Shown here one piece after another: positions 28,762-46,462 of a DNA stretch of 60,358 nt. This DNA is from a virus, in the IMG/VR virus record IMGVR_UViG_3300023179_000114, positions 1 to 60,358 of that record. One strand, 5' to 3'. The position numbers and the translations under genes were made by a program. Each line of letters begins with the position of its first letter. Positions within the stretch are counted from its first letter, which is position 1. Under the pieces are notes generated by a model. It had not been told where the DNA came from. It saw nothing but the letters and a program-made list of their open reading frames with translations, and searched no databases.

Positions 28762-28785
28762 TAGAGTATCACGAAAGGGAAAATC

Positions 28786-29547: not shown

Positions 29548-29581
29548 ACCAAAAACCGAGCCCTAAAGTGTTGTCGCAGCA

Positions 29582-29691: not shown

Positions 29692-29697
29692 AAGAGC

Positions 29698-29902: not shown

Positions 29903-29911
29903 AATAGGATC

Positions 29912-29940
29912 TTGACAAGTAGTTTGCATTATGATATGAT
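29912..29940 (+). promoter_or_regulatory. early promoter
   Basis: TTGACA, 17 nt, TATGAT, immediately after hairpin element 2. Confidence 0.65.
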
Positions 29941-29962
29941 TAGTGCAGAAAGAGAGGCTTGT

Positions 29963-30124
29963 ATGGTCTATCGTGTGATTAGAACTGAAAATGAATCAAG
30001 TACGACCTTTGATTTTGACGATATAGAAGATGCTAGAGAGTGGGTTCGTCAAGAGAAAGATTTTGATGAGAATTGTATGAGTCCTAAGATTGGGATTTAT
30101 GAGATTTTTGAGGTGGAAAAATGA
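29963..30124 (+). CDS. small acidic protein
   Basis: 53 aa from ATG 29963 (MVYRVIRTENESSTTF) after AGAGAGG; longer frames begin in the promoter. FDFDDIEDAREWVRQEKDF is an acidic helix. It overlaps the next gene by 4 nt. Confidence 0.6.
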   Translation: MVYRVIRTENESSTTFDFDDIEDAREWVRQEKDFDENCMSPKIGIYEIFEVEK

Positions 30125-30336
30125 AGTTGGCTAAGACTGATAGTGATAAGGTTTATGAGGATATTTATAATCTGGTAGCAAATACTATTGCTATTACTGA
30201 GGCTCCTGAACTGTATAATATCCCTGTCACAACCAAAGCAAAGGCTATAAAGGAGTTGACAGACGCTACTTTTTTGCGTATAATGCGTAAGATTCGTTCC
30301 CAACGTGATCGGGCTGTTGCTCTGAGTTCTAACTAA
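30121..30336 (+). CDS. small helical protein
   Basis: 71 aa, MKLAKTDSDKVYEDIY to AVALSSN, basic C-terminus (IMRKIRSQRDRAV). Stop TAA is directly followed by the TTG start of the next gene, so translation is coupled. Confidence 0.6.
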   Translation: MKLAKTDSDKVYEDIYNLVANTIAITEAPELYNIPVTTKAKAIKELTDATFLRIMRKIRSQRDRAVALSSN

Positions 30337-30843
30337 TTGAGGTGCTTTATTCCAAACTGGTGCATGAACAAGTTGACAGTTTCTCATCCTAATCCTGACA
30401 TGGTTGACCGATTTGAAAAAGCCTATAATGTTGGTAAGGCTTGTAGTGAGTTTTTGCCTGTTCCAGAAGGTTATTATGAAAATGATAAATGGTATGACTG
30501 GTGCGTAAATAACTGGTCAACAAAATGGGATATTGGGGCCGATGTGGGTACGGATAGGGAAGAATGGCACGGCTTGAAGGCTACTAGAGTAGGCAATCAA
30601 GTAAATTGTTCGTTTGATAGTGCGTGGAGTCCTCCTGTTGGTTTGTATGATAAACTGGTTGAGTTGGGATATGATGTAAAGGCTAGTTATTGGGAACCGG
30701 GTATGGCCTTTTGTGGTATTTGGGATAATGGTGCTGATAATTATGTAGACTATCCTAGTAAGGATATGATTCCTGTTGCATTGTGGAATGAGTTTGGTAT
30801 GGAAGAATTCTTCAAGGACGATCCAGAAGAAGCGACTACCTAA
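30337..30843 (+). CDS. YubB / DUF1281-like protein
   Basis: 168 aa from TTG 30337, directly at the upstream stop. The signature FIPNWCMNKLTVSHP matches the PNWCxNxLxV opening of the YubB ferredoxin-like family found on plasmids and phages; starting at the internal ATG would lose it. Later, WGTDREEW-type and DSAWSPPVGLYDKLV patterns also fit. The family is linked to mobile DNA, with no proven biochemical role. Confidence 0.75.
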   Translation: MRCFIPNWCMNKLTVSHPNPDMVDRFEKAYNVGKACSEFLPVPEGYYENDKWYDWCVNNWSTKWDIGADVGTDREEWHGLKATRVGNQVNCSFDSAWSPPVGLYDKLVELGYDVKASYWEPGMAFCGIWDNGADNYVDYPSKDMIPVALWNEFGMEEFFKDDPEEATT

Positions 30844-30874
30844 ACGCGGTTCGCTCTAAGTTCTTAGCCCAAGA

Positions 30875-30993
30875 GGACTTAGGGCAAGCCTGCGCCGCCG
30901 GGTTCGTCGTAAATCCTTATGCTGCTTATACTTGCGAAGCAAAAATATTTTTTCAAGAAAGCCCCTTGACAAGCCGATAATAGATAGTAGAAT
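30875..30993 (+). promoter_or_regulatory. three-site module 8 plus promoter
   Basis: GGACTTAGGGCAAGC, GCGCCGCC, GTCGTAAATCCTTATGC, ATACTTGCG, TTGACA (30966), GCCGATAA, TAGAAT (30988). No gene follows for 430 nt. Confidence 0.75.
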
Positions 30994-31087
30994 GATTGAG
31001 TAAGACAAAACAAACTTTCGTGGGTCCATGCGGCGGGACTAGATTAGGATAAGCCATTACGAAAAAACAATAAGGCTATGCCGATTG

Positions 31088-31115
31088 TTGACAGCGGGCT
31101 TATACGCTGTATAGT
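31088..31115 (+). promoter_or_regulatory. promoter of the putative ncRNA
   Basis: TTGACA, 16 nt, TATAGT. The spacer lacks the CCGATA block found in most neighbours. Confidence 0.65.
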
Positions 31116-31121
31116 AGTGCT

Positions 31122-31380
31122 AATCTATGGGGGATGGCATCCTCACTCACGACCAATACGAGAACCATCTGTGTACATACAGGAAAAAATGTGAATAGGG
31201 TTTGTTTAAGAATGTGAATACGTTCCGCCCTATTGTGGTTCTCGACAATACAACTAGTAACCGTTACCTCTGATAAACTGCCTGATAATAGGTACCCGAA
31301 AGCAGTGAAGCAGCGTGGGCGGTTTCCATCCGATCCTGACAAGGGGCAATCGTATGGGTTATAGGAATCGGGGCGTAAAA
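31122..31380 (+). ncRNA. candidate structured non-coding RNA
   Basis: No supported gene in 30844-31425. Behind its own promoter the sequence folds into several perfect helices: GGATG/CATCC at 31132-31142; CGAGAACCA (31159) with TGGTTCTCG (31236), 9 bp; nested AATAGGG (31194) with CCCTATT (31228), 7 bp; CTGT/ACAG hairpin at 31169-31182; ACTG (31277) with CAGT (31303) around CCT/AGG; and CCGATCCT (31330) with AGGAATCGG (31363) with one bulge. It is not tmRNA, RNase P or 6S by any signature I know. No U-run terminator is visible. Confidence 0.55.
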
Positions 31381-31391
31381 GATTTCGCTGG

Positions 31392-31419
31392 TTGACAATC
31401 TAAAAATAGATGGTAAAAT
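31392..31419 (+). promoter_or_regulatory. early promoter
   Basis: TTGACA, 16 nt, TAAAAT, 7 nt before the next ATG. Confidence 0.7.
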
Positions 31420-31425
31420 ACAGAC

Positions 31426-31632
31426 ATGAATATCATACCTATAAACGACAACAATAGCCGGTTTGATCTTGTAGAGATCAAGTCTACCCACCCTATGGTG
31501 GCACCTACTCCACATTGTCGGATTCATGGGGCTATGAACTGTGTGGCTATTCACTCTAATGGGAAACTGTGGCGTTGTATTCAAAGTAATCAAATGAAAG
31601 ACTGTAGAGCAGGGTGCGAGGAGAAAATATGA
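31426..31632 (+). CDS. small Cys/His protein
   Basis: 68 aa, MNIIPINDNNSRFDL to AGCEEKI. The Cys/His set (HCRIHGAMNC, LWRCIQ, DCRAGC) suggests a metal-binding fold. Nearly leaderless start; overlaps the next gene (ATGA). Confidence 0.6.
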   Translation: MNIIPINDNNSRFDLVEIKSTHPMVAPTPHCRIHGAMNCVAIHSNGKLWRCIQSNQMKDCRAGCEEKI

Positions 31633-31886
31633 ACGGCTATGAACTGATCGCAGAGTTTGAGAAACTGATTAAGGATATGATTGTGGTTCCTAATCACTGG
31701 CTTCCGGAAGATTTTAGAGATAATCGTACCGATAGCGTTTCGCTGGCTGATCTGGAACGAAAGTGCGATGCTAGAGAGATTGGCGAGACTGATCACCAGA
31801 TTGAGAAGCGAGAGAAGGATAGGCGAATTGCGGCATACGCCGTGATGATCGAACATGGGCAAGAAATAGAATACATAATGAAGTGA
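31629..31886 (+). CDS. helical early protein
   Basis: 85 aa from ATG 31629 after GAGGAGAAAAT. MNGYELIAEFEKLIKD and LADLERKCDAREIGETDHQI are charged helices. Coupled to the previous gene. Function unknown. Confidence 0.6.
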   Translation: MNGYELIAEFEKLIKDMIVVPNHWLPEDFRDNRTDSVSLADLERKCDAREIGETDHQIEKREKDRRIAAYAVMIEHGQEIEYIMK

Positions 31887-31907
31887 TCATAAAGCCTTAC
31901 TCCTAAA

Positions 31908-32027
31908 GCACTTAGGACTAGGCGGGCCGCCCCGGTTTGATGTAAGTGCTGTCCTATCAACCACTTATGCTTAGAAAATTTTTCTTCAAGAAACCCTCTT
32001 GACAATGCCGATAACTAATGGTATAAT
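31908..32027 (+). promoter_or_regulatory. three-site module 9 plus promoter
   Basis: AAGCACTTAGGACTAGG, GGCGGGCCGCC, GATGTAAGTGCTGTCC, AACCACTTATG, TTGACA (31999), GCCGATAA, TATAAT (32022). Confidence 0.8.
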
Positions 32028-32035
32028 GGTGACAT

Positions 32036-32152
32036 ATGAGAATCTTTCGTAAAATAGTTCTATTCTTCCCATCTTTGACCATGTTCTTTCTGGCATATTT
32101 TACGTTCATTTGTGATAATGAGGCTACTAAGTTTAGTTTTAGGTGGAAATAA
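32036..32152 (+). CDS. tiny membrane protein
   Basis: 38 aa with one transmembrane helix (IVLFFPSLTMFFLAYFTFI), 9 nt after the promoter -10, so nearly leaderless. It shares its last base with the next start codon. Confidence 0.5.
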   Translation: MRIFRKIVLFFPSLTMFFLAYFTFICDNEATKFSFRWK

Positions 32153-32355
32153 TGAACTGGCATTATGGTAATCCTATTGTGAATGGAGAATATCTTTGCT
32201 GTATAAAGGGTTATCCTTCTCCTATTTCTTTTGATTGGTATGATGGTAAGTGGGGAAGTTGGGATTGGATTGACGACAAATTGAATCCTATTGATCAATC
32301 TCTAGTGGTATGCTATATTGGTTTTGATGAGATTCCTATGCCGGAGAATTGGTAA
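32152..32355 (+). CDS. small Trp-rich protein, DUF551-like
   Basis: 67 aa from ATG 32152. MNWHYGNPIVNGEYLCC and WYDGKWGSWDW resemble the short DUF551-type proteins encoded by phages (one-layer beta fold). It overlaps the next gene by 1 nt. Confidence 0.6.
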   Translation: MNWHYGNPIVNGEYLCCIKGYPSPISFDWYDGKWGSWDWIDDKLNPIDQSLVVCYIGFDEIPMPENW

Positions 32356-32519
32356 TGAAAACCGAAAGTATTGAACTAAAAGAACTAAAAAGACTTGTGA
32401 GTGAATTTTTGGATGCTACATATTATGTTCCTTTTAGGGCTGTAGACTGTAATCAACAATTGGTAGAAGACTTGTGGGAAAAGTTAGCCGATGCTGTTGA
32501 TTCTGAAAGAAAGAGATAA
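32355..32519 (+). CDS. small helical protein
   Basis: 54 aa, MKTESIELKELKRLVSEF to DSERKR, charged and helical. Followed after 1 nt by the next ATG. No motif. Confidence 0.55.
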   Translation: MKTESIELKELKRLVSEFLDATYYVPFRAVDCNQQLVEDLWEKLADAVDSERKR

Positions 32520-32520
32520 A

Positions 32521-32802
32521 ATGGAATGGAATAACTCTCATAAAAATCCGCCAGAGGCTGGCCAGAAGATATATTACTTCGGTCCCAATATTGGGATTGG
32601 GATTGGCACGTATAGGTATGAGGAACACTCTATTAAACATTTGGGTAAGGTGATTGAACTTTGTCCACATGTGTTCTATAATGTATGTTTTGGTGTGGTT
32701 GATGCTTGTGACGCCCCTTTCTGGCTTCCTTATGATGAGGAGCGAGCAAAGAGTTGGTGTCCTATTATTCCAGAAGAATATACAAAAGGATTATACGATT
32801 GA
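32521..32802 (+). CDS. DUF551-like small protein
   Basis: 93 aa from ATG 32521. MEWNNSHKNPPEAGQKIYYF fits the W..xxxxPxxGxxV pattern of DUF551-like phage proteins; ends with CPIIPEEYTKGLYD. The previous gene is a second, shorter relative. Function unknown. Confidence 0.65.
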   Translation: MEWNNSHKNPPEAGQKIYYFGPNIGIGIGTYRYEEHSIKHLGKVIELCPHVFYNVCFGVVDACDAPFWLPYDEERAKSWCPIIPEEYTKGLYD

Positions 32803-32924
32803 AAACTCTTAGTGATATTTGTCCATGCGGGCAGTGCAAAGAACTAGTGTGGAAGTATGACCACAATGGTATCATCTGGATTTTTTGTGAAAACTGCCAT
32901 TGGTGGTATATCGGTAACTACTGA
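32799..32924 (+). CDS. small zinc-ribbon-like protein
   Basis: 41 aa from TTG 32799, overlapping the previous stop (TTGA). CPCGQCKEL and CENCHWWY give two Cys pairs, like a minimal zinc ribbon. Ends in front of module 10. Confidence 0.5.
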   Translation: MKTLSDICPCGQCKELVWKYDHNGIIWIFCENCHWWYIGNY

Positions 32925-32932
32925 CCAGATAA

Positions 32933-33050
32933 GGACTTAGAGCAAATCCGGCGGCGAAATTTTGTCGTAACTCCTTATCTATCAACGCTTTACGTCTAAA
33001 AATATTTTTTCAAGTTTCCCCTTGACAGTTTCCGATAATAGATGTATACT
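32933..33050 (+). promoter_or_regulatory. three-site module 10 plus promoter
   Basis: GGACTTAGAGCAAATCC, GTCGTAACTCCTTATCTATC, AACGCTTTACG, TTGACA (33022), CCGATAAT, TATACT (33045). Confidence 0.8.
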
Positions 33051-33068
33051 TAACCCAAGACGATAGAT

Positions 33069-33155
33069 GCGGGCCGCTGGCAAAATGACGTCAAAGAAGC
33101 CACGGTTAAATGCAAGGCCGAGTATGGCATAACCCAATCTATTTGTCTTGCCTAA
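33069..33155 (+). pseudogene. 5'-truncated remnant of the 29698-type gene
   Basis: In the 328-nt gap 32925-33252, this open frame ends CKAEYGITQSICLA-stop, aligned with AKEKYGDYVLVERVYSSLT-stop at 29698, and the stop again lies within the hairpin element. No start codon is left in frame. It could also be a short leaderless reading frame. Confidence 0.35.
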
Positions 33156-33196
33156 TCCTACGGATTTGGGATGGATGGGTATAGTCAGCCAGAAAT
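33145..33196 (+). repeat. two-hairpin element copy 3
   Basis: GCCTAATCCTACGGATTTGGG, stem AATCC/GGATT with UACG loop, then GGGTATAGTCAGCC. A promoter follows 9 nt later. Confidence 0.7.
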
Positions 33197-33204
33197 AGTG
33201 ACTC

Positions 33205-33233
33205 TTGACAACGATTGGTCGATAAGGTATAGT
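33205..33233 (+). promoter_or_regulatory. early promoter
   Basis: TTGACA, 17 nt with GTCGATAA, TATAGT, right after hairpin element 3. Confidence 0.7.
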
Positions 33234-33252
33234 AGTAGCACAGAGGTGATTT

Positions 33253-33465
33253 ATGTTTAAAGTAGTCGTTTGTGGTGGGCCGTATGACGGGGAGGTTATT
33301 GGTGATGATGGATGGATTTCCTTCTCTGCCACCCCGACATATCGTTTCGATAGTTATGCCGATGCTCAAGAGTTTATTGATAGTCGAAGTGCTAGAACAG
33401 CAGATGGTGATTATGGTATTGGCGCAACACTAAATATTGATGAAATAGATGGGGATATCTATTAA
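33253..33465 (+). CDS. early hypothetical protein
   Basis: 70 aa, MFKVVVCGGPYDGEVIGDDGW, an opening like the small phage proteins with a beta-meander; the middle (SYADAQEFIDSRSARTADG) resembles a short SH3-like repeat. GAGGTGATTT before ATG. Overlaps the next gene by 1 nt. Confidence 0.6.
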   Translation: MFKVVVCGGPYDGEVIGDDGWISFSATPTYRFDSYADAQEFIDSRSARTADGDYGIGATLNIDEIDGDIY

Positions 33466-33878
33466 TGAAACCTAAACCACTACACGCCGAAGTTCGATTT
33501 CATCTGCTAAATGGTAAAAATTACCGTAAGTGGCAGGTAAATATTATGCGGGGAAGAAAAAGGGTTGACCAATATTATGTCGATCCTGCCGAGTACCAGT
33601 TGGAGATGAGGGGTTGTAAACTTGTCAATAAATTAGCTAGGGCCAAGTGGGTTCATAAGAAACAGAAAAAGAATGTTAGCGGGTGGGTACAGTGTGAAGA
33701 AGTGATTCTAAATCGTGAGATTGGTATTGACAACTTAGAAAAGCTATACTATAATCCTATTCGTGATCCAAGGTGGAGACGCGAAAGTGATTGTGGCGAA
33801 TTTGCTTGGGATGGTAGTGAGTATGCTACTTTAATTACGCAAGATCGACAAGTTTATATTTTGGAGGAAAGAGTATGA
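33465..33878 (+). CDS. early hypothetical protein
   Basis: 137 aa, basic N-half (KNYRKWQVNIMRGRKRVDQY, RAKWVHKKQKK) and acidic C-half. No family recognised. Overlaps the L12-like gene by 4 nt, so the two may be made together. Confidence 0.6.
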   Translation: MKPKPLHAEVRFHLLNGKNYRKWQVNIMRGRKRVDQYYVDPAEYQLEMRGCKLVNKLARAKWVHKKQKKNVSGWVQCEEVILNREIGIDNLEKLYYNPIRDPRWRRESDCGEFAWDGSEYATLITQDRQVYILEERV

Positions 33879-34249
33879 TCAAGGTTGAAATGAGCGTTCG
33901 TGAAGCTCTGAACATGGTGTCGAATGGTTGTAATCTCGATATGTACGAGAAGATCGTATGTGCGTTGGAGGTGGCGTTGGGTGTGAACCAGCGTCGAGTG
34001 GTGACCATCACTGGAGGATTGACTCTGGATAATCGTATCCATTCCATCAAGGCTATCCGACAGCACACCGGATGGGGTTTGAAGGAAGCCAAGGATTGGA
34101 GTGACTATCTGGTTGGTGGTTGGCATAACGACAGGTTCATTCCTGCTAAGTCCGGAGCCAAGCAGAGCATCACTCTGAAAACGCCGGAAGCGGCAGAGGG
34201 TTTGCTGCGTGATCTGGTTGGACTGGGTTGTGAGGGTTATCTCTCATAA
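33875..34249 (+). CDS. protein with ribosomal L7/L12 C-terminal-like domain
   Basis: 124 aa. Residues ~53-124 read RIHSIKAIRQHTGWGLKEAKDW, then TPEAAEGLLRDLVGLGCEGYL, which follows the L7/L12 C-terminal pattern (KIxVIKxVRxxTGLGLKEAKxxV, AExxKxxLExAGAxVE). In bL12 this domain contacts EF-G and EF-Tu. The N-terminal half is not the bL12 dimerisation domain. It may redirect translation factors, or simply reuse the fold. GC-rich codon use relative to the right arm. Confidence 0.7.
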   Translation: MIKVEMSVREALNMVSNGCNLDMYEKIVCALEVALGVNQRRVVTITGGLTLDNRIHSIKAIRQHTGWGLKEAKDWSDYLVGGWHNDRFIPAKSGAKQSITLKTPEAAEGLLRDLVGLGCEGYLS

Positions 34250-34270
34250 CCTAAACCCCTATGCTGTAAA

Positions 34271-34399
34271 GACTTACGGCAAACGGGCCGGGCCGACCTT
34301 GACGTAAGTGCTTACCACCAAACAACTTACGACAAAAGAAAAAATTTTTGGGGGAGACTCAAGTTCGCTCTTGACAATACCGATACTATACTGTAGAAT
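34271..34399 (+). promoter_or_regulatory. three-site module 11 plus promoter
   Basis: AGACTTACGGCAAACGG, GACGTAAGTGCTTACC, ACAACTTACGACAAAAG, TTGACA (34371), CCGATACT, TAGAAT (34394). It drives only a short leader before a second promoter. Confidence 0.8.
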
Positions 34400-34458
34400 G
34401 ATAGAGTACGACGCAAGACGCTGCCACGAAGCCAACAATAGAAACCCTCATGGCACTC

Positions 34459-34487
34459 TTGACAAGTAGGTATCTGTAGCGTATACT
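34459..34487 (+). promoter_or_regulatory. early promoter
   Basis: TTGACA, 17 nt, TATACT, 60 nt downstream of the module 11 promoter; the two run in tandem. Confidence 0.65.
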
Positions 34488-34531
34488 GATACTATGACGA
34501 TTGGAACTATAACACTTTTGGAGAATGTACC

Positions 34532-34780
34532 ATGAAGAAGTTTTCTTTTATTGTTGATGTTGTGGCTGACGAACTGGATCGTGATGAAGTTGCTGGTACT
34601 ATCAGAGATTGCCTGACCAGTAATCTTCCGGGTGATGTTTACTCTAATGTCAAGACAGGAGAGGTCAAGGCGTTCAGTGAACAGGGTTGGAAGGTTTTTC
34701 GTGCTAGGGTTATGGGTATCACGGCAAAGCAGGCTGGTGATGCTCATAATGGTAAGGTAGAGGTTGTCTCTGTTGCCTAA
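34532..34780 (+). CDS. early hypothetical protein
   Basis: 82 aa, MKKFSFIVDVVADELDRDEV to VEVVSVA, alpha/beta. TTGGAGAATGTACC before ATG. Last gene before tRNA-Arg; a 22-nt-spaced CAGTGGTAAATCCGCTGG hairpin-like segment follows the stop. Confidence 0.6.
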   Translation: MKKFSFIVDVVADELDRDEVAGTIRDCLTSNLPGDVYSNVKTGEVKAFSEQGWKVFRARVMGITAKQAGDAHNGKVEVVSVA

Positions 34781-34841
34781 ATAAAATAACAGGTTATAAT
34801 ATCTGGTAGCCAGTGGTAAATCCGCTGGCTGCCAGTATTAT

Positions 34842-34914
34842 GCCCCTGTAGCTCAGTAGATAGAGCGGCGAGCTTCTACCTCGCGGGTCGGGAGTGCAAC
34901 TCTCTCCAGGGGTA
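34842..34914 (+). tRNA. tRNA-Arg (anticodon UCU)
   Basis: Acceptor GCCCCTG/CAGGGGT, D-stem GCTC/GAGC, anticodon stem GCGAG/CTCGC with loop CTTCTAC, T-stem GGGAG/CTCTC. T-loop is TGCAACT (G at 55) and the D-loop lacks GG. Reads AGA. Confidence 0.85.
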
Positions 34915-35499
34915 CTATTTTTCTTGATAATGTATTTCTCTGTGACAATTACTACATAAGATAATACATTTATCTATTTCAGTTTTAATATCTTCTAGAG
35001 AAGCTTTTTTATTTCTGAGCATAGCACCTATTCCATCTGCCTTATTATCTTCTATATGATGGAAATCTAAACATTCTGGTGATGATAATCCGCATTTGCA
35101 ACATGAAGATTTTTGTTTTAACTCTAATACATATCTAGCTTTTTTAGTAAGGTATTTGTATGTATTGGTATGTTCTTTCCTATGACAGTTTGAGCATATA
35201 ATGTCGCATTTATTTATTTCTGCTAATACTATTTCTGTGGAATATCCATGACGAATAAGATTACATACTGTATCTTTTTTTGTCTCTGGATTTCTATGAT
35301 GAAAATCTAGACAATAGAATCTAGTCTCTCCACAGATTTTACATGGGGTAGTCTCTTTAAGATTTTGAACTAGAGTTCTGTTATGATCTTTAGTTTTGTT
35401 CTTATATCTCTGTTTATATACCTTAACTCTGTCAATATTTTTATTAGCCCATTTGGTATTATTGGCTATTTTAGCTTTGCTTGTTTTATTCTTTTTCAT
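34915..35499 (-). CDS. HNH-type endonuclease abutting tRNA-Arg
   Basis: 194 aa. Two tandem Cys/His units: CKICGETRFYCLDFHHRNP with IICSNCHRKEH, and CCKCGLSSPECLDFHHIED with ILCSNCHREIH. Each has the HH and C..C..H ligands of HNH nucleases. The stop codon starts 1 nt beyond the tRNA-Arg 3' end on the opposite strand. A late-type promoter and AGGAGTTACCC lie upstream. Probably a homing gene using the tRNA as target. Confidence 0.8.
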   Translation of the reverse strand: MKKNKTSKAKIANNTKWANKNIDRVKVYKQRYKNKTKDHNRTLVQNLKETTPCKICGETRFYCLDFHHRNPETKKDTVCNLIRHGYSTEIVLAEINKCDIICSNCHRKEHTNTYKYLTKKARYVLELKQKSSCCKCGLSSPECLDFHHIEDNKADGIGAMLRNKKASLEDIKTEIDKCIILCSNCHREIHYQEK

Positions 35500-35517
35500 G
35501 GGTAACTCCTGTATAGA

Positions 35518-35530
35518 TTAATACACCAAA
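35518..35530 (-). promoter_or_regulatory. putative late promoter for HNH gene
   Basis: The minus strand reads TTTGGTGTATTAATC, about 20 nt before the start, then AGGAG. Confidence 0.5.
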
Positions 35531-35573
35531 TCTTAGCAGTACGAGGAGATTTGCCATAAACCTATGGCAGTAA

Positions 35574-35693
35574 AGGACTTAGGAAAAATGAGGCGGGCCG
35601 GATTTGGCGTAAGTTGTTTGCCTATAAGGACTTAGAACAAAATATTTTTCTTGAAGAATCCCTCTTGACTTGTCGATATTAGTAGAGTAGAAT
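35574..35693 (+). promoter_or_regulatory. three-site module 12 plus promoter
   Basis: GGACTTAGGAAAAATG, GGCGGGCCGG, GGCGTAAGTTGTTTGCC, AGGACTTAGAACAAAAT, TTGACT (35665), GTCGATAT, TAGAAT (35688). Confidence 0.8.
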
Positions 35694-35716
35694 CGAAGCA
35701 ACAAAGGGAGAAAACT

Positions 35717-36421
35717 ATGAAAGTTGCAGAGGGTAATGATAAGTTAGGTAAGGGGTGCGTTGTTGTGTCTCGTCCTGTGGGTGATACCTGTCCTAGCGAT
35801 TGCGACTATTTGGGGAATGGTTGTTATGCGGAGCAGACCGAAAAGATTTATCCGGGTGTTCGTCCCGCCGGTATGCAGAATCTTGTGACCGAGAAAAATA
35901 AAATTCGTGCTATGATTTTGGATGCAAATCGTAGGAATAAAAGTATTAGAGTTCACGAAAGAGGAGACTTTTTCCTGAATGGAGAACTTGACCTAGAATA
36001 TGTATCAAACTGGACATGGGCATGTGAGAGTATTTTGGCAGATGGTGAGTCGCTTCCCGATATGTGGTTTTATACTCATATCTATGATAGTCGGCTTGTT
36101 AGTCTGGAAAAGTATATGGCCGTGTATGCTAGTGTGCATGATGATAATGATATGAATGAGGCTAAGAGTCAGGGTTTCAAACTGTTCGCATGGTGTGACA
36201 GCGATATGAAGGTGGCACCGAAACGTCCGAAGCATAAGGCTAAGGCTGACGTTTGGCGAGCATCTTTGCCAAAGTTGGTTGTGCTGAACGGTGAAAAGTT
36301 TATAACGTGTCCTGAGATTCGTCGTGGTCGTGCGATTATTACTTGCACTGGTACAAAAGATAGCATATCGTGCGATATGTGTGTGAAGGGATTAGCAAAC
36401 GTATTGTTTCCTGCTCATTAG
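35717..36421 (+). CDS. conserved phage protein with Cys signature
   Basis: 234 aa. The opening SRPVGDTCPSDCDYLGNGCYAE is a signature I recall from phage and metagenomic proteins of unknown function (DUF7227-like): Cys-rich N-terminus, RVHERGDFF, then a C-terminal CPEIRRG and CDMC pair. The Cys set may hold a metal or Fe-S centre. GGAGAAAACT before ATG; next gene begins 9 nt after the stop. Confidence 0.7.
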   Translation: MKVAEGNDKLGKGCVVVSRPVGDTCPSDCDYLGNGCYAEQTEKIYPGVRPAGMQNLVTEKNKIRAMILDANRRNKSIRVHERGDFFLNGELDLEYVSNWTWACESILADGESLPDMWFYTHIYDSRLVSLEKYMAVYASVHDDNDMNEAKSQGFKLFAWCDSDMKVAPKRPKHKAKADVWRASLPKLVVLNGEKFITCPEIRRGRAIITCTGTKDSISCDMCVKGLANVLFPAH

Positions 36422-36430
36422 GAGAATAGT

Positions 36431-37030
36431 ATGACTACTATGTATGTCGGTAAATATACAGCCAGTGGCAGCAAAAACTCTTTCTATAAAATGAAAGGTA
36501 GACGATACGGCTTCAAAAGTTTTCCTAACAAAAGTTTGGCCGAGTTTGCTCATACTGTTCAGAGCGACTTGTCGGTACCGTTTACTTTTGCTCCGCGTGT
36601 TTATAGTCCGGTGTGCAGGATACGAGTTCCTAACTATTTTGCAGTATCGGACGGTAAGGGTGGGTATAAGGCCGAGGAAAAACTTGTGTTGAGTGATTGG
36701 GGATATTTGACCGAAATTGCCTATCCTTGTAGTTGTAGAAGGTGTGATGGATACTGTTATGAAAATGATCTGTGCGATAAGTATGATGCTATAAATGATC
36801 TGGTGGGTGAAATCTATGATAGTTTTGGTATCAACTATACAGATGCTCATAATGCTAATCTTGGATATGTCAAGCGTGGTAAAAATAAAGTATTAGTGAT
36901 TGTTGACGTTGGGCGTGAGAGCATGGGTGAGATTGGAGAGTATGAGGAACCTTGTTGGGCTGAAGGTAGCGGCGGCGATGAATATGAGTATTGCTCATGC
37001 TACAAATGTGGTGGAGGATATAGTGGCTAA
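36431..37030 (+). CDS. Cys-rich protein with kinase-like loop
   Basis: 199 aa. Residues ~132-168 read GEIYDSFGINYTDAHNANLGYVKRG and KVLVIVDVG, which recalls the HxxNxG and VxxDxG catalytic motifs of kinase-fold proteins, with no clear N-lobe. Cys clusters (CSCRRCDGYC, CSCYKCGG) frame the domain. The kinase reading is tentative. GGAGAATAGT before ATG. Confidence 0.5.
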   Translation: MTTMYVGKYTASGSKNSFYKMKGRRYGFKSFPNKSLAEFAHTVQSDLSVPFTFAPRVYSPVCRIRVPNYFAVSDGKGGYKAEEKLVLSDWGYLTEIAYPCSCRRCDGYCYENDLCDKYDAINDLVGEIYDSFGINYTDAHNANLGYVKRGKNKVLVIVDVGRESMGEIGEYEEPCWAEGSGGDEYEYCSCYKCGGGYSG

Positions 37031-37259
37031 GTATTACATACAGTCTGGCACACTACAACTCATTTACTCTACTAATCAAAAACCTCTGGACGCTGCGGTA
37101 GCAGCATTATGGGAGACTAACAAATTTGATACGCTCGACGAACATTTTTATGTGGATGAAAGAGGATTCAAAGACTATGCTACAGCGTTACCGGATACTA
37201 AAGTATATAAAACTACTAAGGTGGTGAGGAAAGCAGGCTGGAGCCTCGAAGAAGAATAA
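37023..37259 (+). CDS. small protein, GTG start
   Basis: 78 aa from GTG 37023 after GGTGGAGGA, overlapping the previous stop by 8 nt. MAKYYIQSGTLQLIYSTNQK with LDEHFYVDERGF matches short beta-rich phage proteins common in large genomes. A longer upstream extension would lie inside the previous gene. Confidence 0.65.
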   Translation: MAKYYIQSGTLQLIYSTNQKPLDAAVAALWETNKFDTLDEHFYVDERGFKDYATALPDTKVYKTTKVVRKAGWSLEEE

Positions 37260-37282
37260 CTCTCTCCCCAAGTCCTTTGTGA

Positions 37283-37394
37283 GTAAGCACTTAGGACGAA
37301 CGGGGCGGCGACAATTTGACGTAAGTGCTTATGCTTCAACCACTTAGGAAAAACTAAAGTAAGGATTGACAACTACCGATAAACATGGTATGCT
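37283..37394 (+). promoter_or_regulatory. three-site module 13 plus promoter
   Basis: GTAAGCACTTAGGACG, GACGTAAGTGCTTATGC, AACCACTTAGG, TTGACA (37366), CCGATAAA, TATGCT (37389). Confidence 0.8.
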
Positions 37395-37416
37395 CAGTAG
37401 ACGTAAAGGAGAACGA

Positions 37417-37671
37417 ATGATTCAATGGATCGGGGTGCTAGTGGCACTGTTGGGTTTGGCTTATACTGGTGTAAAAGACTATCAGAAGGGAGATATCAAA
37501 CTTCCTAAACTTCCACAAAAACAGTTGACAAAACCTACATTTCCGGTACAATATTGTTTGATGGCGTATGATCCTAATTTAGACAAGGTTTTCTATTTAC
37601 ATGACAATGGCATCTGGTATGACTATGCACCACCTCAACGACGATACTCGACCCCAACGCAACCACAATAA
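37417..37671 (+). CDS. small membrane protein
   Basis: 84 aa from ATG 37417 after AAAGGAGAACG. One N-terminal transmembrane helix (IQWIGVLVALLGLAYTGV), then a Pro/Lys-rich soluble tail (LPKLPQKQLTKPTFPV). The longer frame starts in the promoter. Confidence 0.65.
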   Translation: MIQWIGVLVALLGLAYTGVKDYQKGDIKLPKLPQKQLTKPTFPVQYCLMAYDPNLDKVFYLHDNGIWYDYAPPQRRYSTPTQPQ

Positions 37672-37813
37672 GATCAAAATCAAGGTCAAGCAACCTTGGG
37701 AGTTGAGTACTGGACATCGAGAAGAACGTAATACGTTGTTTGATAACCGCCCCAAGCGTCAGCGAACACGACGAGATATTGACAAGGGGTGGAGAGAAGA
37801 GTATGATATGTAG
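37628..37813 (+). CDS. small basic protein
   Basis: 61 aa from ATG 37628 (MHHLNDDTRPQRNHN), Arg/Lys-rich (RPKRQRTRRDIDKGW). It overlaps the previous gene by 44 nt in another frame, which is unusual here, and ends 5 nt before tRNA-Thr. Start uncertain; no clear SD. Confidence 0.45.
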   Translation, partial: HHLNDDTRPQRNHNKIKIKVKQPWELSTGHREERNTLFDNRPKRQRTRRDIDKGWREEYDM

Positions 37814-37818
37814 GCTTA

Positions 37819-37891
37819 GCCGGTATAACTCAGTTAGCAGAGTGTCAAATTTGTAATTTGAATGTCGTGGGTGCAAATCCTACTACCGGCT
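37819..37891 (+). tRNA. tRNA-Thr (anticodon UGU)
   Basis: Acceptor GCCGGTA/TACCGGC, D-stem ACTC/GAGT, anticodon stem TCAAA/TTTGA with loop TTTGTAA, T-stem GTGGG/CCTAC. T-loop TGCAAAT (G55); D-loop AGTTAGCA has A-G in place of G18-G19. Confidence 0.85.
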
Positions 37892-37892
37892 C

Positions 37893-38159
37893 TCGGGAAT
37901 GGTGTAACGGTAGCACAAGTGACTTTAACCAACTGGAGTGCATTTAGAGAAATCTTAATGTAGAATCTCTCAAATTCGGGGAACGCTTTAAAATGCTAAT
38001 CCCGAGCCAAGCCGGAAACGGAAGGTGTAACGACTTGACGGGAGACGCCTAAAACACAAGTCAAGGCGAAGGTAAAGTCTAGACCACAAACCGATAGGGT
38101 AACGAAAGTTATAGTGGTAAGTGGATCACTTTGTCTAGGTTCAAATCCTAGTTCCCGAA
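37893..38159 (+). tRNA. tRNA-Gln (anticodon UUG) interrupted by a group I intron
   Basis: Exon 1 (37893-37925): acceptor TCGGGAA, D-arm GTGT-AACGGTA-GCAC, AGTGA, CTT. Exon 2 (38122-38159): TGGA, TCACT, TTGT, CTAGG-TTCAAAT-CCTAG, TTCCCGA, A. Joined loop CTTTGGA gives anticodon UUG. U1-A72 fits glutamine tRNAs. The intron lies between positions 34 and 35. Confidence 0.85.
37926..38121 (+). ncRNA. group I self-splicing intron
   Basis: 196 nt ending in G. P1 forms between exon ACUU and GAGU with a U-G pair at the splice site. Core elements in order: AAATTCGGGGAACGC (P), GCTAATCCCGAGCCAAGCC (Q), GGTGTAACGACTTGACGGG (R), AAGGTAAAGTCTAG (S). No gene is inside; the neighbouring HNH gene is outside on the opposite strand. 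Confidence 0.85.
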
Positions 38160-38854
38160 TTTAATTTTTGCCAGTAGCCTCTCCGATTTGGAATTTGTAT
38201 ATCATAAGACTTAGCCCATTTTCGAATAGCGTTATCTGATACTCCGTATCTTTTTGCTATGGTTGTCATGGGGTAAGAATTAACAAGATTTTCCAGTTCT
38301 TCCTTCGACGGTCTGTCTGTTTTTCTCAACCAAGGTTTTGGTCCTCCTCTACCTTTTTTGATTTTAGGAGATTTTTTAAAACGTTTACCAGCATAGGTAT
38401 CTGTTTGACTATGACAATTAGGACATAAGAAACATAAATTATCTAATCTATTATCATTTGGAATTCCATTTTTATGTTCCAGTTGTAGGGATATTTTTTT
38501 ATTATTCCATGTGTCTTTTAGGCCACACTCTGCACATTGGTATGTGATAAGATTATTGCGAATAATTCTGCTTTTGATAGAGCTGCGATTGGATGTGCTG
38601 TTTACACAAAAATATTCTTTATTAGTTTTTTTTGGAGTGAATCGTTTACCTTTATTAGCACTTTTACCCAAAGTAATATGTGATAAATCTATATTTTCAT
38701 CTTTAGCTCTACGCTTAACCGTATGATGGTTTCCTCCTTTATTGTTCATTCCAAAATATCGTAATATATCAGCGATAGTATTAGATCTAGAAACTAATGC
38801 TTTGAACTCCTGTGAGGGAATTGACCATATTATACTTCGTTTTTTTCTATTCAT
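38141..38854 (-). CDS. HNH endonuclease overlapping tRNA-Gln
   Basis: 237 aa. N-terminal helix-turn-helix (IADILRYFGMNNKGGNHHTV). HNH core: CAECGLKDTW, LQLEHKNGIPNDNRLDNL, FLCPNCHSQTDT. C-terminal second helix-turn-helix (IAKRYGVSDNAIRKWAKSY). Its last seven codons read antisense through the T-arm and acceptor of tRNA-Gln exon 2. Close relative at 45755. Late-type promoter and AAGGAGTAAACA upstream. Confidence 0.9.
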   Translation of the reverse strand: MNRKKRSIIWSIPSQEFKALVSRSNTIADILRYFGMNNKGGNHHTVKRRAKDENIDLSHITLGKSANKGKRFTPKKTNKEYFCVNSTSNRSSIKSRIIRNNLITYQCAECGLKDTWNNKKISLQLEHKNGIPNDNRLDNLCFLCPNCHSQTDTYAGKRFKKSPKIKKGRGGPKPWLRKTDRPSKEELENLVNSYPMTTIAKRYGVSDNAIRKWAKSYDIQIPNRRGYWQKLNSGTRI

Positions 38855-38876
38855 TGTTTACTCCTTATTGGTACCA

Positions 38877-38892
38877 TATATAATACACCAAT
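38877..38892 (-). promoter_or_regulatory. putative late promoter for HNH gene
   Basis: The minus strand reads ATTGGTGTATTATAT, about 25 nt before the HNH start. Confidence 0.5.
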
Positions 38893-38942
38893 TTGTTGTC
38901 TTGACAAGTTGGATTATTATGCTATAATAGCCTAGAAAATGA

Positions 38943-39014
38943 TGCCCTGTAGCACAATGGTTGTGCGTTCCGCTGTTAACGGAGTGGTTGTAGGTTCGAG
39001 TCCTACCGGGGCAG
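38943..39014 (+). tRNA. tRNA-Asn (anticodon GUU)
   Basis: Acceptor TGCCCTG/CGGGGCA, D-stem GCAC/GTGC with loop AATGGTT, anticodon stem TTCCG/CGGAG with loop CTGTTAA, T-arm GTAGG-TTCGAGT-CCTAC. Canonical elbow. Confidence 0.9.
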
Positions 39015-39017
39015 TTT

Positions 39018-39104
39018 GGGAACTTGGCAGAGCGGACGAATGCGTCTGATTACTAATCAGAAGAGGGTTAAAATCCTCCGGGGGTTCGAATCCCTCAGTT
39101 CCCG
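39018..39104 (+). tRNA. tRNA-Ser, class II, anticodon ACU
   Basis: Acceptor GGGAACT/AGTTCCC, anticodon stem TCTGA/TCAGA with loop TTACTAA, long variable arm (GAGG/CCTC), T-arm GGGGG-TTCGAAT-CCCTC. Position 34 is A, where tRNA-Ser for AGY normally has G. Confidence 0.8.
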
Positions 39105-39124
39105 TTGTAAGCTATTGAAAATAA

Positions 39125-39234
39125 AAGACTTAGAACAAATCGGGCGGCGAATTTTTGACGTAAGTACTTGAGCCATAACGACTTAGGATTTTCTCAAGAT
39201 TGTGGTTGACAACTGACGATAAGTGTATTAGAAT
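39125..39234 (+). promoter_or_regulatory. three-site module 14 plus promoter for tRNA genes
   Basis: AGACTTAGAACAAATCG, GACGTAAGTACTTGAG, AACGACTTAGG, TTGACA (39206), GACGATAA, TAGAAT (39229). It starts 10 nt before tRNA-Ile. Confidence 0.8.
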
Positions 39235-39243
39235 ACACATCAT

Positions 39244-39323
39244 GCTCCCGTGCCAGTGGTTCCTGGCAATCACTCTTATAAGGTGGTCCGAAAGGGGACT
39301 TGGTTCGATTCCAAGCGGGAGTA
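39244..39323 (+). tRNA. tRNA with anticodon UAU (Ile-type), extended variable arm
   Basis: Acceptor GCTCCCG/CGGGAGT, D-arm CCAG-TGGTTC-CTGG, anticodon stem TCACT/GGTGG around CTTATAA, T-arm CTTGG-TTCGATT-CCAAG. A 12-nt variable segment TCCGAAAGGGGA can form a small stem, which is odd for tRNA-Ile. Confidence 0.65.
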
Positions 39324-39360
39324 TTTATAAGGAACGGAGGCTGGCGTTGAGTTGCGGTAT

Positions 39361-39432
39361 GGCCCGTTAGTATAGAAGTTAGTATATTGGGCTTTCATCC
39401 CGAAGACACCGGAGCGTTACCGGTACGGGCTA
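39361..39432 (+). tRNA. tRNA-Glu (anticodon UUC), aberrant T-loop
   Basis: Acceptor GGCCCGT/ACGGGCT, anticodon stem TTGGG/CCCGA with loop CTTTCAT, T-stem ACCGG/CCGGT. The T-loop AGCGTTA lacks the usual TTC, and the D-loop AGAAGTTA lacks GG. Confidence 0.7.
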
Positions 39433-39439
39433 TTATAAA

Positions 39440-39511
39440 GGGAGATAAAGTTAGATAGCGAACTAGGGGTCTTTTAAACCCCAGAGCAGAGTGCAAGTCT
39501 CTGATCTCCCA
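39440..39511 (+). tRNA. tRNA-Lys (anticodon UUU)
   Basis: Acceptor GGGAGAT/ATCTCCC, D-stem AGTT/AACT, anticodon stem GGGGT/ACCCC with loop CTTTTAA, T-stem CAGAG/CTCTG. T-loop TGCAAGT (G55). A TTGACA box begins 2 nt downstream. Confidence 0.85.
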
Positions 39512-39512
39512 C

Positions 39513-39540
39513 TTGACAAACTGGCTGATTGGTGTATAGT
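39513..39540 (+). promoter_or_regulatory. early promoter
   Basis: TTGACA, 16 nt, TATAGT, directly after tRNA-Lys. Confidence 0.7.
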
Positions 39541-39559
39541 AGGATTCAAAGGAGAGGTT

Positions 39560-39766
39560 ATGATTTACGACGAAGAAAACGATGATTACCAGTATGACTA
39601 CCACGATATTGTGGATGATGTAGATTTTATTGACGATGAAACCTATTATGATGATGGCACCGATGAGCCTTGGATGGGCACAGACGAAGATGAAAATGAA
39701 GTAATGGACAATACCGGTTGGGATAACTATTATCACAATATTACAGATGAACTAATTGACGATTGA
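39560..39766 (+). CDS. extremely acidic protein, second DNA-mimic candidate
   Basis: 68 aa from ATG 39560 after AAGGAGAGGTT. About 30 Asp/Glu, no Lys or Arg, many Tyr (MIYDEENDDYQYDYHDIVDD). An upstream in-frame start lies in tRNA-Lys and is rejected. Similar in composition, not sequence, to the 27018 gene. Possibly mimics nucleic acid to block a host enzyme; target unknown. Confidence 0.7.
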   Translation: MIYDEENDDYQYDYHDIVDDVDFIDDETYYDDGTDEPWMGTDEDENEVMDNTGWDNYYHNITDELIDD

Positions 39767-39777
39767 ATCTCTTCTTA

Positions 39778-39855
39778 ACGGACGCAACTTGGTGGGACAA
39801 GTATTCTATTCTTTCTTTCCTTTCTTTCTAGTACGTTCGAATCGTACCGTCCGTT
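39778..39855 (+). pseudogene. tRNA-like remnant without anticodon arm
   Basis: Acceptor ACGGACG/CGTCCGT, D-arm ACTT-GGTGGGAC-AAGT and T-arm GTACG-TTCGAAT-CGTAC are perfect. Between them lie about 28 nt of nearly pure pyrimidine (TTCTTTCTTTCCTTTCTTTC) that cannot form an anticodon stem. It ends 3 nt before the next ATG. Confidence 0.7.
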
Positions 39856-39858
39856 TTT

Positions 39859-40365
39859 ATGAATGTGATGAATACTATGGTTGATGAATTTCGCCGCACC
39901 GAAGATGGTAAAATTATCCAAGGTGCTAGCCACACTTGTCGAGTGTTAAATCATAAGGTTCGTAACAAAGTTATTATCAAGGCTGTTTGCGATCTGCGTA
40001 AGATTGCAGATGAGTTTGATAGTATCGCTTGCTGCGGAGTAAGCGGCTTGACTGTTGTTCCACAAATAGCAGAAATTCTCAATAAGCATATAGTAGTTAT
40101 TCGTAAGCCAGATGAGAAACGCTATAGTGATTTTTATATTGAAGGTGTTTCTCCATTTCGATATGTTATTGTTGATGATCTAATCTGCTCTGGAGATACT
40201 CTAAAGTGGATCAAGCAAGCAATCTATGAGGATAATCCGAAGGCTCGGTGTGTTGGGTTGTATTGCTATATTCCAGAAGAGTGTGCGTATACTCAGGCAA
40301 CAACCAAAGAATTTGAAGCACGATACCGAATCCCTCTCCTAAATCCTGCTCCAGTAAAGAGTTAG
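39859..40365 (+). CDS. phosphoribosyltransferase
   Basis: 168 aa. YVIVDDLICSGDTLKWI is the PRPP-binding loop of type I phosphoribosyltransferases; CCGVSGLTVVPQIAEIL fits the upstream loop. It could serve nucleotide salvage or link orotate-type bases to PRPP; substrate not predictable. The ATG follows the tRNA-like element with no SD; ATGs at codons 4 and 7 are alternatives. Confidence 0.8.
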   Translation: MNVMNTMVDEFRRTEDGKIIQGASHTCRVLNHKVRNKVIIKAVCDLRKIADEFDSIACCGVSGLTVVPQIAEILNKHIVVIRKPDEKRYSDFYIEGVSPFRYVIVDDLICSGDTLKWIKQAIYEDNPKARCVGLYCYIPEECAYTQATTKEFEARYRIPLLNPAPVKS

Positions 40366-40476
40366 AGCAAATCTGTGCCGCCCGCCGCGTCGTAAGTGCT
40401 TACGCTGCAACACCTTACGGACCGAAATTTTTTCACAAGTTTTCCGCTTGACAAGCCGATAAGTATAGTGTAGAAT
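40359..40476 (+). promoter_or_regulatory. three-site module 15 plus promoter
   Basis: AGAGTTAGAGCAAATC (divergent site 1 overlapping the previous stop), GTCGTAAGTGCTTACG, ACACCTTACGG, TTGACA (40448), GCCGATAA, TAGAAT (40471). Confidence 0.75.
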
Positions 40477-40519
40477 CAGTCTAGTTGAACGAAGAACAAG
40501 TAACACGAAAGGGTTGATT

Positions 40520-41467
40520 ATGCCTGCTATGGTTGAAAAGATGATGTTTGTTGGTGCTACCCCTTGGCATGGTGAGGGTACTCAGTTGGATGAAAATCCC
40601 TCGATCAGTGAAGCAATTACCGCTGCTGGTCTGGATTGGGAAGTCGGTACTAAGCCGCTGTTCACGGCGGAAGGTACTGAAGTCAATGCGAAGGCTACCT
40701 ATCGCAAGACCGACAATCGGGTGCTTGGGGTTGTCGGCCCTCGATATACTCCGCTCCAGAATCAGGATGCTTTTGATTGGTTCCAGCCGTTTCTGGACGC
40801 TGGTGAGTGCCAACTGCATACCGCCGGTTCGCTCAGTGAGGGCGAAAAGGTTTGGGTGTTGGCTCAACTCAACCGTGCGAACAGCGAGATTGTTCCTGGT
40901 GATGAAGTGAGTAAGTTCATCCTGCTGTCGAATAGCCATGACGGAACTACGTCGATTCGTGTCGGATACACTCCGATTCGCGTCGTATGTGTGAATACTC
41001 TCGCGGCTGCTCACAATAGTAAGGATAGCCAGTTGATTCGTATTCGTCACACTCGCTCCAGCAAGACCAATCTGGAAAACGTGCGTGACATTATGGACAA
41101 TATCAATGCTCAGTTTGAGGCTACTGCGGAACAGTATCGGTTCCTCGCCAGTAAGGACTTCAATCAAGCAGATATCAAGCGTTATGTGAAGGTCGTGCTG
41201 GGTATTGATAAGACTCCCGACGAGGATATCAAGACTCGCACGAAGAATATCATGGATGAGATTCTCGCCCTTGTCGAAGGCCCGAAGCAAACGGCTGCCA
41301 ATGTGCGTGGTACATGGTGGGCTGCTTATAACGGGTACAATGAGTATCTGAATTACAACAAGGGTCGCAACGTGAGCAATCGCCTCGATTCGCTCTGGTT
41401 CGGCCAGAATGGGGTGGATAACCTCAAGGCACTCAATACCGCAGTGGAGTTTGCGAACGCCGTCTGA
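40520..41467 (+). CDS. DUF932 phage/plasmid-like protein
   Basis: 315 aa from ATG 40520 (MPAMVEKMMFVGATPWHGEG). The segment TPWHGEGTQLD, VGPRYTPLQNQDAFDWF and later NSHDGTTSIRVGYTPIRVVC follow the DUF932 / phage-plasmid TIGR03299 family. GC-rich, regular codon use and a strong promoter and terminator suggest high expression. Family function is unknown; it is often single-copy in large phages. Confidence 0.85.
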   Translation: MPAMVEKMMFVGATPWHGEGTQLDENPSISEAITAAGLDWEVGTKPLFTAEGTEVNAKATYRKTDNRVLGVVGPRYTPLQNQDAFDWFQPFLDAGECQLHTAGSLSEGEKVWVLAQLNRANSEIVPGDEVSKFILLSNSHDGTTSIRVGYTPIRVVCVNTLAAAHNSKDSQLIRIRHTRSSKTNLENVRDIMDNINAQFEATAEQYRFLASKDFNQADIKRYVKVVLGIDKTPDEDIKTRTKNIMDEILALVEGPKQTAANVRGTWWAAYNGYNEYLNYNKGRNVSNRLDSLWFGQNGVDNLKALNTAVEFANAV

Positions 41468-41486
41468 TCTTTTCGTGTCACGATGA

Positions 41487-41534
41487 AAAGGGGGAGAGCC
41501 GTGGCTGGGAAACCGGCTGCGGCTTTCTCTTTTG
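41487..41534 (+). terminator. strong terminator after DUF932 gene
   Basis: GGGAGAGCCG and CGGCTTTCTC form the outer stem, with GGCTGG-GAAA-CCGGCT inside, followed by TTTT. Confidence 0.85.
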
Positions 41535-41760
41535 AATCGGTAGCATTTGACGTAAGTGCTTGGTATTAAAGAACTTAGGGCGAACCGGGCCCCGAAATTT
41601 CGTCCTAAGTTTAGTAGTGATAAGGGGTTACGAAGTTTTTGTAATGGACAAGAGGAGAGAGTGCCGATATAATGGAAGGGTTCCGGTTGTAAGTGTTTAT
41701 GGGACAAAGAGTTAGGTTAAAATCTTAACTATAAATGTAAAGAGTAGAATCTTTTAATTT

Positions 41761-41812
41761 GTCTCGCCTAATCCAGCGGATTTGCTGGTCATGCTGATAG
41801 TCAGCCAAAATA
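41761..41812 (+). repeat. two-h­airpin element copy 4
   Basis: GTCTCGCCTAATCCAGCGG; stem AATCC/GGATT; second stem GCTGA/TCAGC. Not inside a reading frame. Confidence 0.7.
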
Positions 41813-41967
41813 CTGGTATAGTAACAAGAGAGACTGATTCTAAATTCTTATGTGCCAACCACTTGCGATCAGTCTTAGGGTGTGGTATACTATACAATGT
41901 AACAACCTTGTAAAAGGTATAGTAAATAATTAGTTGAGATTAGTTCTCAATATAAGATATTTTTATA

Positions 41968-45754: not shown

Positions 45755-46462
45755 ATGTCCAGAAAAACTAGTCAAATTTGGAAAATAGATAATAGTAGTC
45801 TACAACATATACTTGATACATCCTCAAGTATTGTAGACGTTTTGAGACAACTTAATCTCAATCCTCATAGTGGAAATCATAGAACTTTATATAAAAGACT
45901 TGAGGAAGAAAAGTTTTCTTTAGATAGGTTAAAAGTTAATAGAGCAGAGAGACTTAAATTTATTAAAAAAAGCATAAAAGTTTTTTCTGATATTTTTATT
46001 GAAAATTCAACCTGCAATAGGACAAATATTAGATCAAAAATTATTAAACATAATCTTATACCTTATGAGTGCAGTAAATGTAAAAATAAAGGTAATTGGC
46101 TCAACGAAAAACTATCACTACAGTTGGAACATATCAATGGTATCGGTAATGATCATCGTTTGTCTAACTTAACTTTTCTTTGTCCGAATTGTCATAGTCA
46201 AACAAAAACATTTGCTGGAAAGAAAAATAGAAAAGAGCCAAAAAAATGTATAGATTGCCATGCTCAAACGATATTAAGGTCAAGTACAAGATGTAATAAA
46301 TGTAGTTCCATATTAAAAGGTAAAAAACAGCGCAAATTTAATATTGATAAAACAGAACTAGAAAAATTATTGAAAACAAACAATATAAATCAAATTAGTA
46401 AAAAATATAATGTCTCATTTACAACAGTTAAAAAATACTGCATAAAATATGGTCTCATCTAA
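45755..46462 (+). CDS. HNH endonuclease, relative of the 38141 gene
   Basis: 235 aa. Same order: SIVDVLRQLNLNPHSGNHRT helix-turn-helix; HNH core CSKCKNKGNW, LQLEHINGIGNDHRLSNL, FLCPNCHSQTKT; an extra Cys knuckle (CIDCHAQT, CNKCSS); C-terminal helix-turn-helix (QISKKYNVSFTTVKKYCI). It is followed after 7 nt by a tRNA 3' fragment, matching the tRNA-linked habit of its relative. Confidence 0.9.
   Translation: MSRKTSQIWKIDNSSLQHILDTSSSIVDVLRQLNLNPHSGNHRTLYKRLEEEKFSLDRLKVNRAERLKFIKKSIKVFSDIFIENSTCNRTNIRSKIIKHNLIPYECSKCKNKGNWLNEKLSLQLEHINGIGNDHRLSNLTFLCPNCHSQTKTFAGKKNRKEPKKCIDCHAQTILRSSTRCNKCSSILKGKKQRKFNIDKTELEKLLKTNNINQISKKYNVSFTTVKKYCIKYGLI

Follow-up and report, generated by a model that had tools for sequence, protein, structure and literature searches.

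The Synechocystis tRNA-fMet gene offers a bacterial example of a tRNA intron with a homing endonuclease: the enzyme, I-SspI, is encoded inside the intron and is aimed at the anticodon region. In phages, collaborative homing is known from the psbA gene of cyanophage S-PM2 and the endonuclease F-CphI (PMC6083498). Hausner's 2014 review (PMC3984707) placed every phage intron observed to date in protein genes, despite the many tRNA genes that phages carry. Devoto 2019 (PMC6784885) reported introns in tRNA genes of the Lak megaphages as new and 'enigmatic', with no class named in the main text, and a 2026 survey noted introns in jumbo phage tRNAs again (PMC13037316). Introns go unmentioned in the main texts of the huge-phage paper (PMC7162821) and of the Atu_ph07 paper (PMC6102473). 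In the main texts of the open-access papers searched, we found no description of group I introns in tRNA genes of phages.

We analyzed a tRNA-Gln(UUG) gene in an uncultivated virus record. The window, that is, the whole stretch of 60,358 nt, codes for a terminase together with head and tail genes, and probably represents part of a jumbo phage genome, since its syntenic relatives lie on contigs of up to ~238 kb. Among named phages, its GP88-like protein has distant matches only, and the protein adjoining the terminase (14510-16708) has no match. Positions 25207-41633 contain at least 15 copies of an intergenic repeat of 60-94 nt with the core ACTTAGG...GACGTAAGTGCTTA, which is also present in one relative (L028), and a second repeat, TAATCC..GGATTTG..ATAGTCAGC, occurs in 7 copies. 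A repeated promoter-like motif (TTGACA..GCCGAT..TGTA) was found at 28041, 29651, 37354, 50031, 50985 and 54164.

Intron anatomy and the group I fold

The features of the locus are collected in Table 1. The tRNA-Gln gene, which does not encode CCA, is skipped by ARAGORN with default settings. The splice sites can be slid by one T on the sequence; we chose the site between positions 34 and 35 because the omega-G rule settles this ambiguity. Joining the exons at this site gives the anticodon loop CTTTGGA, and both group I hallmarks, a U·G pair at the 5' splice site (U34·G) and a terminal omega-G (G38121), are present. Our script for splice-site assignment demanded the U and the G; a spliced cloverleaf and a guide sequence were not imposed. 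A P10 pairing of exon 2 UGG with intron CCA was dropped, since the CCA is absent in two of the related introns (L028 and L092).

Table 1. Positions of the tRNA genes, intron elements, HNH gene and promoter-like sites in the window
Feature	Position	Strand	Remarks and basis
tRNA-Thr(UGU)	37819..37892	+	Abuts tRNA-Gln; conserved left neighbour
tRNA-Gln(UUG) 5' exon	37893..37925	+	Ends A31 C32 U33 U34; spliced cloverleaf, ARAGORN on spliced candidates, intronless homologues
Group I intron, 196 nt	37926..38121	+	Starts with U, ends with omega-G, no ORF; RF00028, model R1, covariation
Internal guide sequence GAG	37936..37938	+	P1 with C32 U33 U34, including U34·G; invariant in 38 introns
P2 hairpin, GAAA loop	37942..37959	+	Weakest helix, 60% of alignment cells paired
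P3 5' strand UCUCUC	37966..37971	+	3' strand 38040-38045; 6/6 pairs covary, 100% paired
P4 and P5	37976..38005	+	P4 37976-37981/38000-38005; P5 37984-37986/37995-37997; alignment of 38 introns
P6 and P6a	38006..38026	+	P6 swap C-G to G-C; P6a changes on both sides
P7 5' strand GACUU (guanosine-binding helix)	38032..38036	+	Partner AAGUC 38075-38079; 100% paired
P8	38046..38068	+	38046-38049 with 38065-38068; 3/4 pairs covary
P9 and P9b	38083..38118	+	Alignment of 38 introns
tRNA-Gln 3' exon	38122..38159	+	U35 G36 ... discriminator A73; ARAGORN on spliced candidates, intronless homologues
Free-standing HNH endonuclease, 237 aa	38141..38854	-	Antisense; phrog_10822 HNH endonuclease (8.8e-45) and alignment
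Promoter-like site facing HNH gene	38880..38907	-	10/12 consensus match alone
Promoter-like site facing tRNA-Asn and downstream tRNAs	38901..38928	+	12/12 consensus match alone
tRNA-Asn(GUU)	38943..39014	+	Conserved right neighbour of tRNA-Gln

We compared the intron with two covariance models. The Rfam model RF00028 gave 53.7 bits (E 7e-11), barely above its gathering score. Model R1, built from 29 related introns (tRNA-Leu introns from phages and bacteria, with three further phage introns) of which none lies in tRNA-Gln, gave 187 bits (E 2e-52). The sole other R1 match in the 60 kb (41710-41926, 16.8 bits), which coincides in part with a dispersed repeat, was regarded as a chance hit.

In an alignment of 38 diverse introns, 93.3% of the structure cells were paired, compared with 79.1% in shuffled alignments and 28-41% when the partners were slid, and 34 of the 55 pairs of the group I structure showed changes on both sides. 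Covariation supports every helix except P1; its pairing, which our guide-sequence check found in most family members, never varies in the 38-intron set and is for that reason neutral as evidence. The last pair of P7 is A-U in 27 sequences and U-A in 11. Furthermore, the predicted exon joint, for example ...ACTT/TGGATC..., is seen in 70 intronless tRNA-Gln genes of related phages; 38 of these genes are distinct, some lie on near-identical contigs, and almost all share this tRNA context. An earlier note on this DNA had proposed a 196-nt group I intron in tRNA-Gln(UUG) at 34|35, leaving the loop CTTTGGA, and had made the proposal depend on a valid P3/P7 core. Two models, covariation and empty sites bear out the intron, and the core is confirmed by the RF00028 score and by complete, covarying P3 and P7 pairing in the alignment. 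The note was right about intron, tRNA and site, and overlooked the antisense HNH gene, which is present in every intron-bearing related phage. By its anticodon-loop site, its small size and its homology to bacterial tRNA introns, this ORF-less group I element belongs with the tRNA introns of bacteria and is probably IC3-like, a label drawn from homology.

The HNH gene and the movement of the cassette

The 3' end of the HNH gene overlaps the tRNA-Gln 3' exon by 19 nt, and the promoter-like sites of the cassette are divergent. A Pfam search with the protein gave no hit, and a PDB search with the HNH alignment returned nothing useful. We collected 80 related loci via the neighbouring GP88 gene and found the HNH gene in 5/5 intron-containing phages (the window and four others) and in 0/70 intronless relatives (~6e-8, assuming independence). 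Scanning viral contigs with the HNH alignment returned the same four intron-containing contigs and no others. Two distant homologues were found elsewhere: one (39%) occupies the gap between tRNA-Glu and a tRNA-Gln without an intron, directly before the latter, in a 595-kb phage, and the other (41%) is located beside tRNA-Asn in Enterococcus phage 113. Because an HNH-like ORF lies within 1.1 kb of ~15% of intronless phage tRNAs, we rejected HNH proximity in general as proof and argue only from the specific 5/5 versus 0/70 association. For a further tRNA-Gln intron (L017), no HNH gene was found nearby on a contig that ends ~0.4 kb downstream.

Other HNH genes were also observed. A second phrog_10822 gene is found in the window at 45755-46462, and at 34842-35499 the 3' end of tRNA-Arg(UCU) touches that of an HNH gene lying in antisense, with the same geometry as the tRNA-Gln/HNH pair. 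HNH-like ORFs also accompany intronless tRNA-Gln genes, in the Gln-Asn gap (L247, L273, L283, L290, L321) or in the Thr-Gln gap (L263, L284, L289, L309), and tRNA-Gln is a hot spot for HNH-like gene insertion.

In the GP88 gene tree, the five intron-containing phages require five separate changes in all bootstraps, a count forced by well supported branches. In both flanks, the intron-containing L303 is 95-96% identical to L302, its sister without the intron, and ~1.3 kb around the cassette (L303 7833-9162) replaces 383 bp of L302. The tRNA-Gln exons are identical in the window, L298 and L303, while the GP88 proteins of L298 and L303 are only ~80% identical to that of the window; the exon sequence therefore travels along. 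Intron and HNH gene are shown to occur together and to be replaced locally; at the DNA level they form a mobile cassette of two genes. As in collaborative homing, a free-standing endonuclease gene adjoins the intron, and the pair is co-inherited and horizontally mobile.

We consider it likely that this is an IC3-type tRNA intron spread by the free-standing HNH endonuclease through collaborative homing, with splicing and cleavage inferred. An exogenous guanosine held in P7 would attack after U34 of P1 (C32 U33 U34 with GAG), and the U34 end would then attack after omega-G, restoring the anticodon UUG. The HNH protein, as the likely homing enzyme, would cleave those tRNA-Gln alleles of co-infecting phages that lack the intron; repair would then insert the intron together with the HNH gene and adjoining tRNA sequence. 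The donor's own HNH site would be shielded by the intron.

The same distribution might arise if an ordinary self-splicing tRNA intron were moved passively by recombination within tRNA clusters, the HNH gene being a separate selfish element that landed nearby. The tRNA clusters of these phages are very variable, and intronless relatives have several unrelated HNH genes and other ORFs between tRNA-Thr and tRNA-Gln or between tRNA-Gln and tRNA-Asn. Moreover, the segment exchanged between L302 and L303 takes in neighbouring tRNAs, and recombination of a whole segment without homing could carry the cassette. However, one and the same HNH family follows the intron through separate lineages and appears in no other viral contig of our scan, and we regard passive movement as unlikely. 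It is still less probable that the intron is degenerate, the gene being a tRNA pseudogene or the splicing depending on host proteins. The intron is small and A+U-rich, P2 is weakly conserved and an encoded maturase is absent, which would fit this reading, whereas the compensatory changes across the core and the full cloverleaf kept by the exons in five phages argue against it. An intron of the archaeal or eukaryotic type, removed by a splicing endonuclease, would share the anticodon-loop position alone and can practically be dismissed, because two models recover a group I core and the insertion lies at 34|35, not after 37.

Related introns in phages and bacteria

We searched IMG/VR with a 21-nt pattern from the P7 region and obtained at least 120 stretches. 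The 124 regions examined were 120 pattern stretches, the window (counted twice), a 735-kb huge phage (L002) and Agrobacterium phage Atu_ph07 (L005). Among the matches listed, the intron was placed in a tRNA anticodon loop in 103 of the 124 regions, giving at least ~100 viral tRNA-borne members. The hosts among these matches were Leu(UAA) at 34|35 (~80), Met(CAU) at 33|34 (6), Gln(UUG), Asn(GUU) and Thr(UGU), with single cases of Ile, Lys and Arg; a few assignments are doubtful. The splice calls of ARAGORN itself (for example 'tRNA-Ser', 'Stop', 'Tyr(ATA)') ignore omega-G and were rejected, the sites being reassigned by our script, and four genes initially scored as 'Tyr(ATA)' proved to be Leu(UAA). 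The earlier note had placed the intron at the site of the cyanobacterial and plastid tRNA-Leu(UAA) intron, and the phage Leu members agree with this place. It had also called such introns rare, which holds for the literature (PMC3984707, PMC6784885) but not for the sequence data, given the number of viral members.

Besides L002 and Atu_ph07, where the intron region is annotated with a hypothetical protein only, members from named phages occur in huge phages of 595 kb and 484 kb. RF00028 at E 0.01 did not report the introns of L002 and Atu_ph07. Microcoleus phage My-WqHQDG carries a member as well, and its record lists a tRNA-Arg of 286 nt. Phage tRNA genes thus commonly carry group I introns that standard annotation overlooks, so that phage tRNA sets are undercounted.

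The family also occurs in bacterial genomes, where its hosts are tRNA-Leu(UAA), Met(CAU) and Arg(CCU). Among the matches listed, the tRNA-Leu relatives are mostly rhizobial and acidobacterial, and none of the 92 assigned bacterial introns lies in tRNA-Gln. Outside tRNA-Gln, the introns closest to the Gln introns are those of phage tRNA-Leu(UAA) (~73-81% identity), followed by bacterial introns. The five syntenic Gln introns group as a single clade in the intron tree (100/99), and the rows closest to this clade are introns of phage tRNA-Leu, with unsettled bootstrap; L017 falls separately, near phage Leu introns, again with unsettled bootstrap. The contig of L028 holds both a Leu(UAA) and a Gln intron, which are 81% identical. 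The Gln intron has its affinity with phage tRNA-Leu(UAA) introns and probably originated from them; their guide sequence pairs with the C32-U33-U34 that U34 tRNAs have in common. Reverse splicing through this shared guide sequence may have provided the route from Leu to Gln.

Several contigs carry more than one intron. The tRNA-Leu(UAA) genes of Lak-C1 (L345 1330-2070; MK250029.1 ~332.0-332.7 kb) and likewise of Lak-B2 (L346) apparently contain two group I introns, in Lak-C1 in the D-loop and at 34|35. R1 matches them with 29-38 bits, and they are possibly among the 'enigmatic' Lak tRNA introns. In the 484-kb huge phage LR756508 (L333 460-1110), neighbouring Lys(UUU) and Arg(UCU) tRNA genes, close to but not stated to abut each other, have a group I intron each, and contig IMGVR_UViG_3300047548_001418 (L051, L098) has introns in both tRNA-Thr(UGU) and tRNA-Met(CAU). 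A 363-kb contig (L012/L359/L364/L367) shows several intron matches within 4 kb (~11.6-15.3 kb), where ARAGORN, when set to permit introns, calls tRNAs for Ser, Gln(UUG) and Arg.

A search by motif, not by family model, found HNH-like ORFs adjoining other members or lying within introns of ~660-700 nt; the latter were observed in phage tRNA-Leu introns (L014, L026, L027, L031, L034, L038, L061, L112). It is possible that these HNH-containing introns represent a later stage of the union of intron and endonuclease. More tentatively, and with somewhat more doubt than confidence, we suggest that widespread and largely unannotated mobile phage tRNA introns use the C32-U33-U34 address to hop between isoacceptors (from Leu to Gln, Thr, Lys, Ile and others); endonuclease genes would join the intron from outside and, in some phages, lie within it. 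One lineage moves as an intron-endonuclease cassette, and since alleles with and without its intron are available, it is practical to test how introns move from one tRNA to another and come by endonucleases.

Comparison with known systems

The intron resembles the group IC3 introns of bacterial, cyanobacterial and plastid tRNA-Leu(UAA) genes in its 34|35 site, its small ORF-less core and the logic of P1, and the two rhizobial-type bacterial tRNA-Leu members compared directly are 66-72% identical to the Gln introns. It differs from them in its host, tRNA-Gln, in its location in a phage and in its HNH gene partner. With the group I introns of phage protein genes (td, nrdB, DNA polymerase) it shares the phage location, the self-splicing type and a spread that would here also depend on a homing endonuclease, whereas its host gene is a tRNA and the endonuclease gene lies outside the intron in antisense. 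The Lak megaphages likewise have introns within tRNA genes. The Synechocystis tRNA-fMet intron with I-SspI also combines a tRNA intron with a homing endonuclease, although there the tRNA is a different one, the setting is bacterial and the enzyme is intronic. As in S-PM2 psbA with F-CphI, the intron adjoins the gene of a free-standing, here putative, homing endonuclease; unlike that system, which has an enzyme of the Endo VII type, the present one combines an HNH protein of phrog_10822 with a putative tRNA target.
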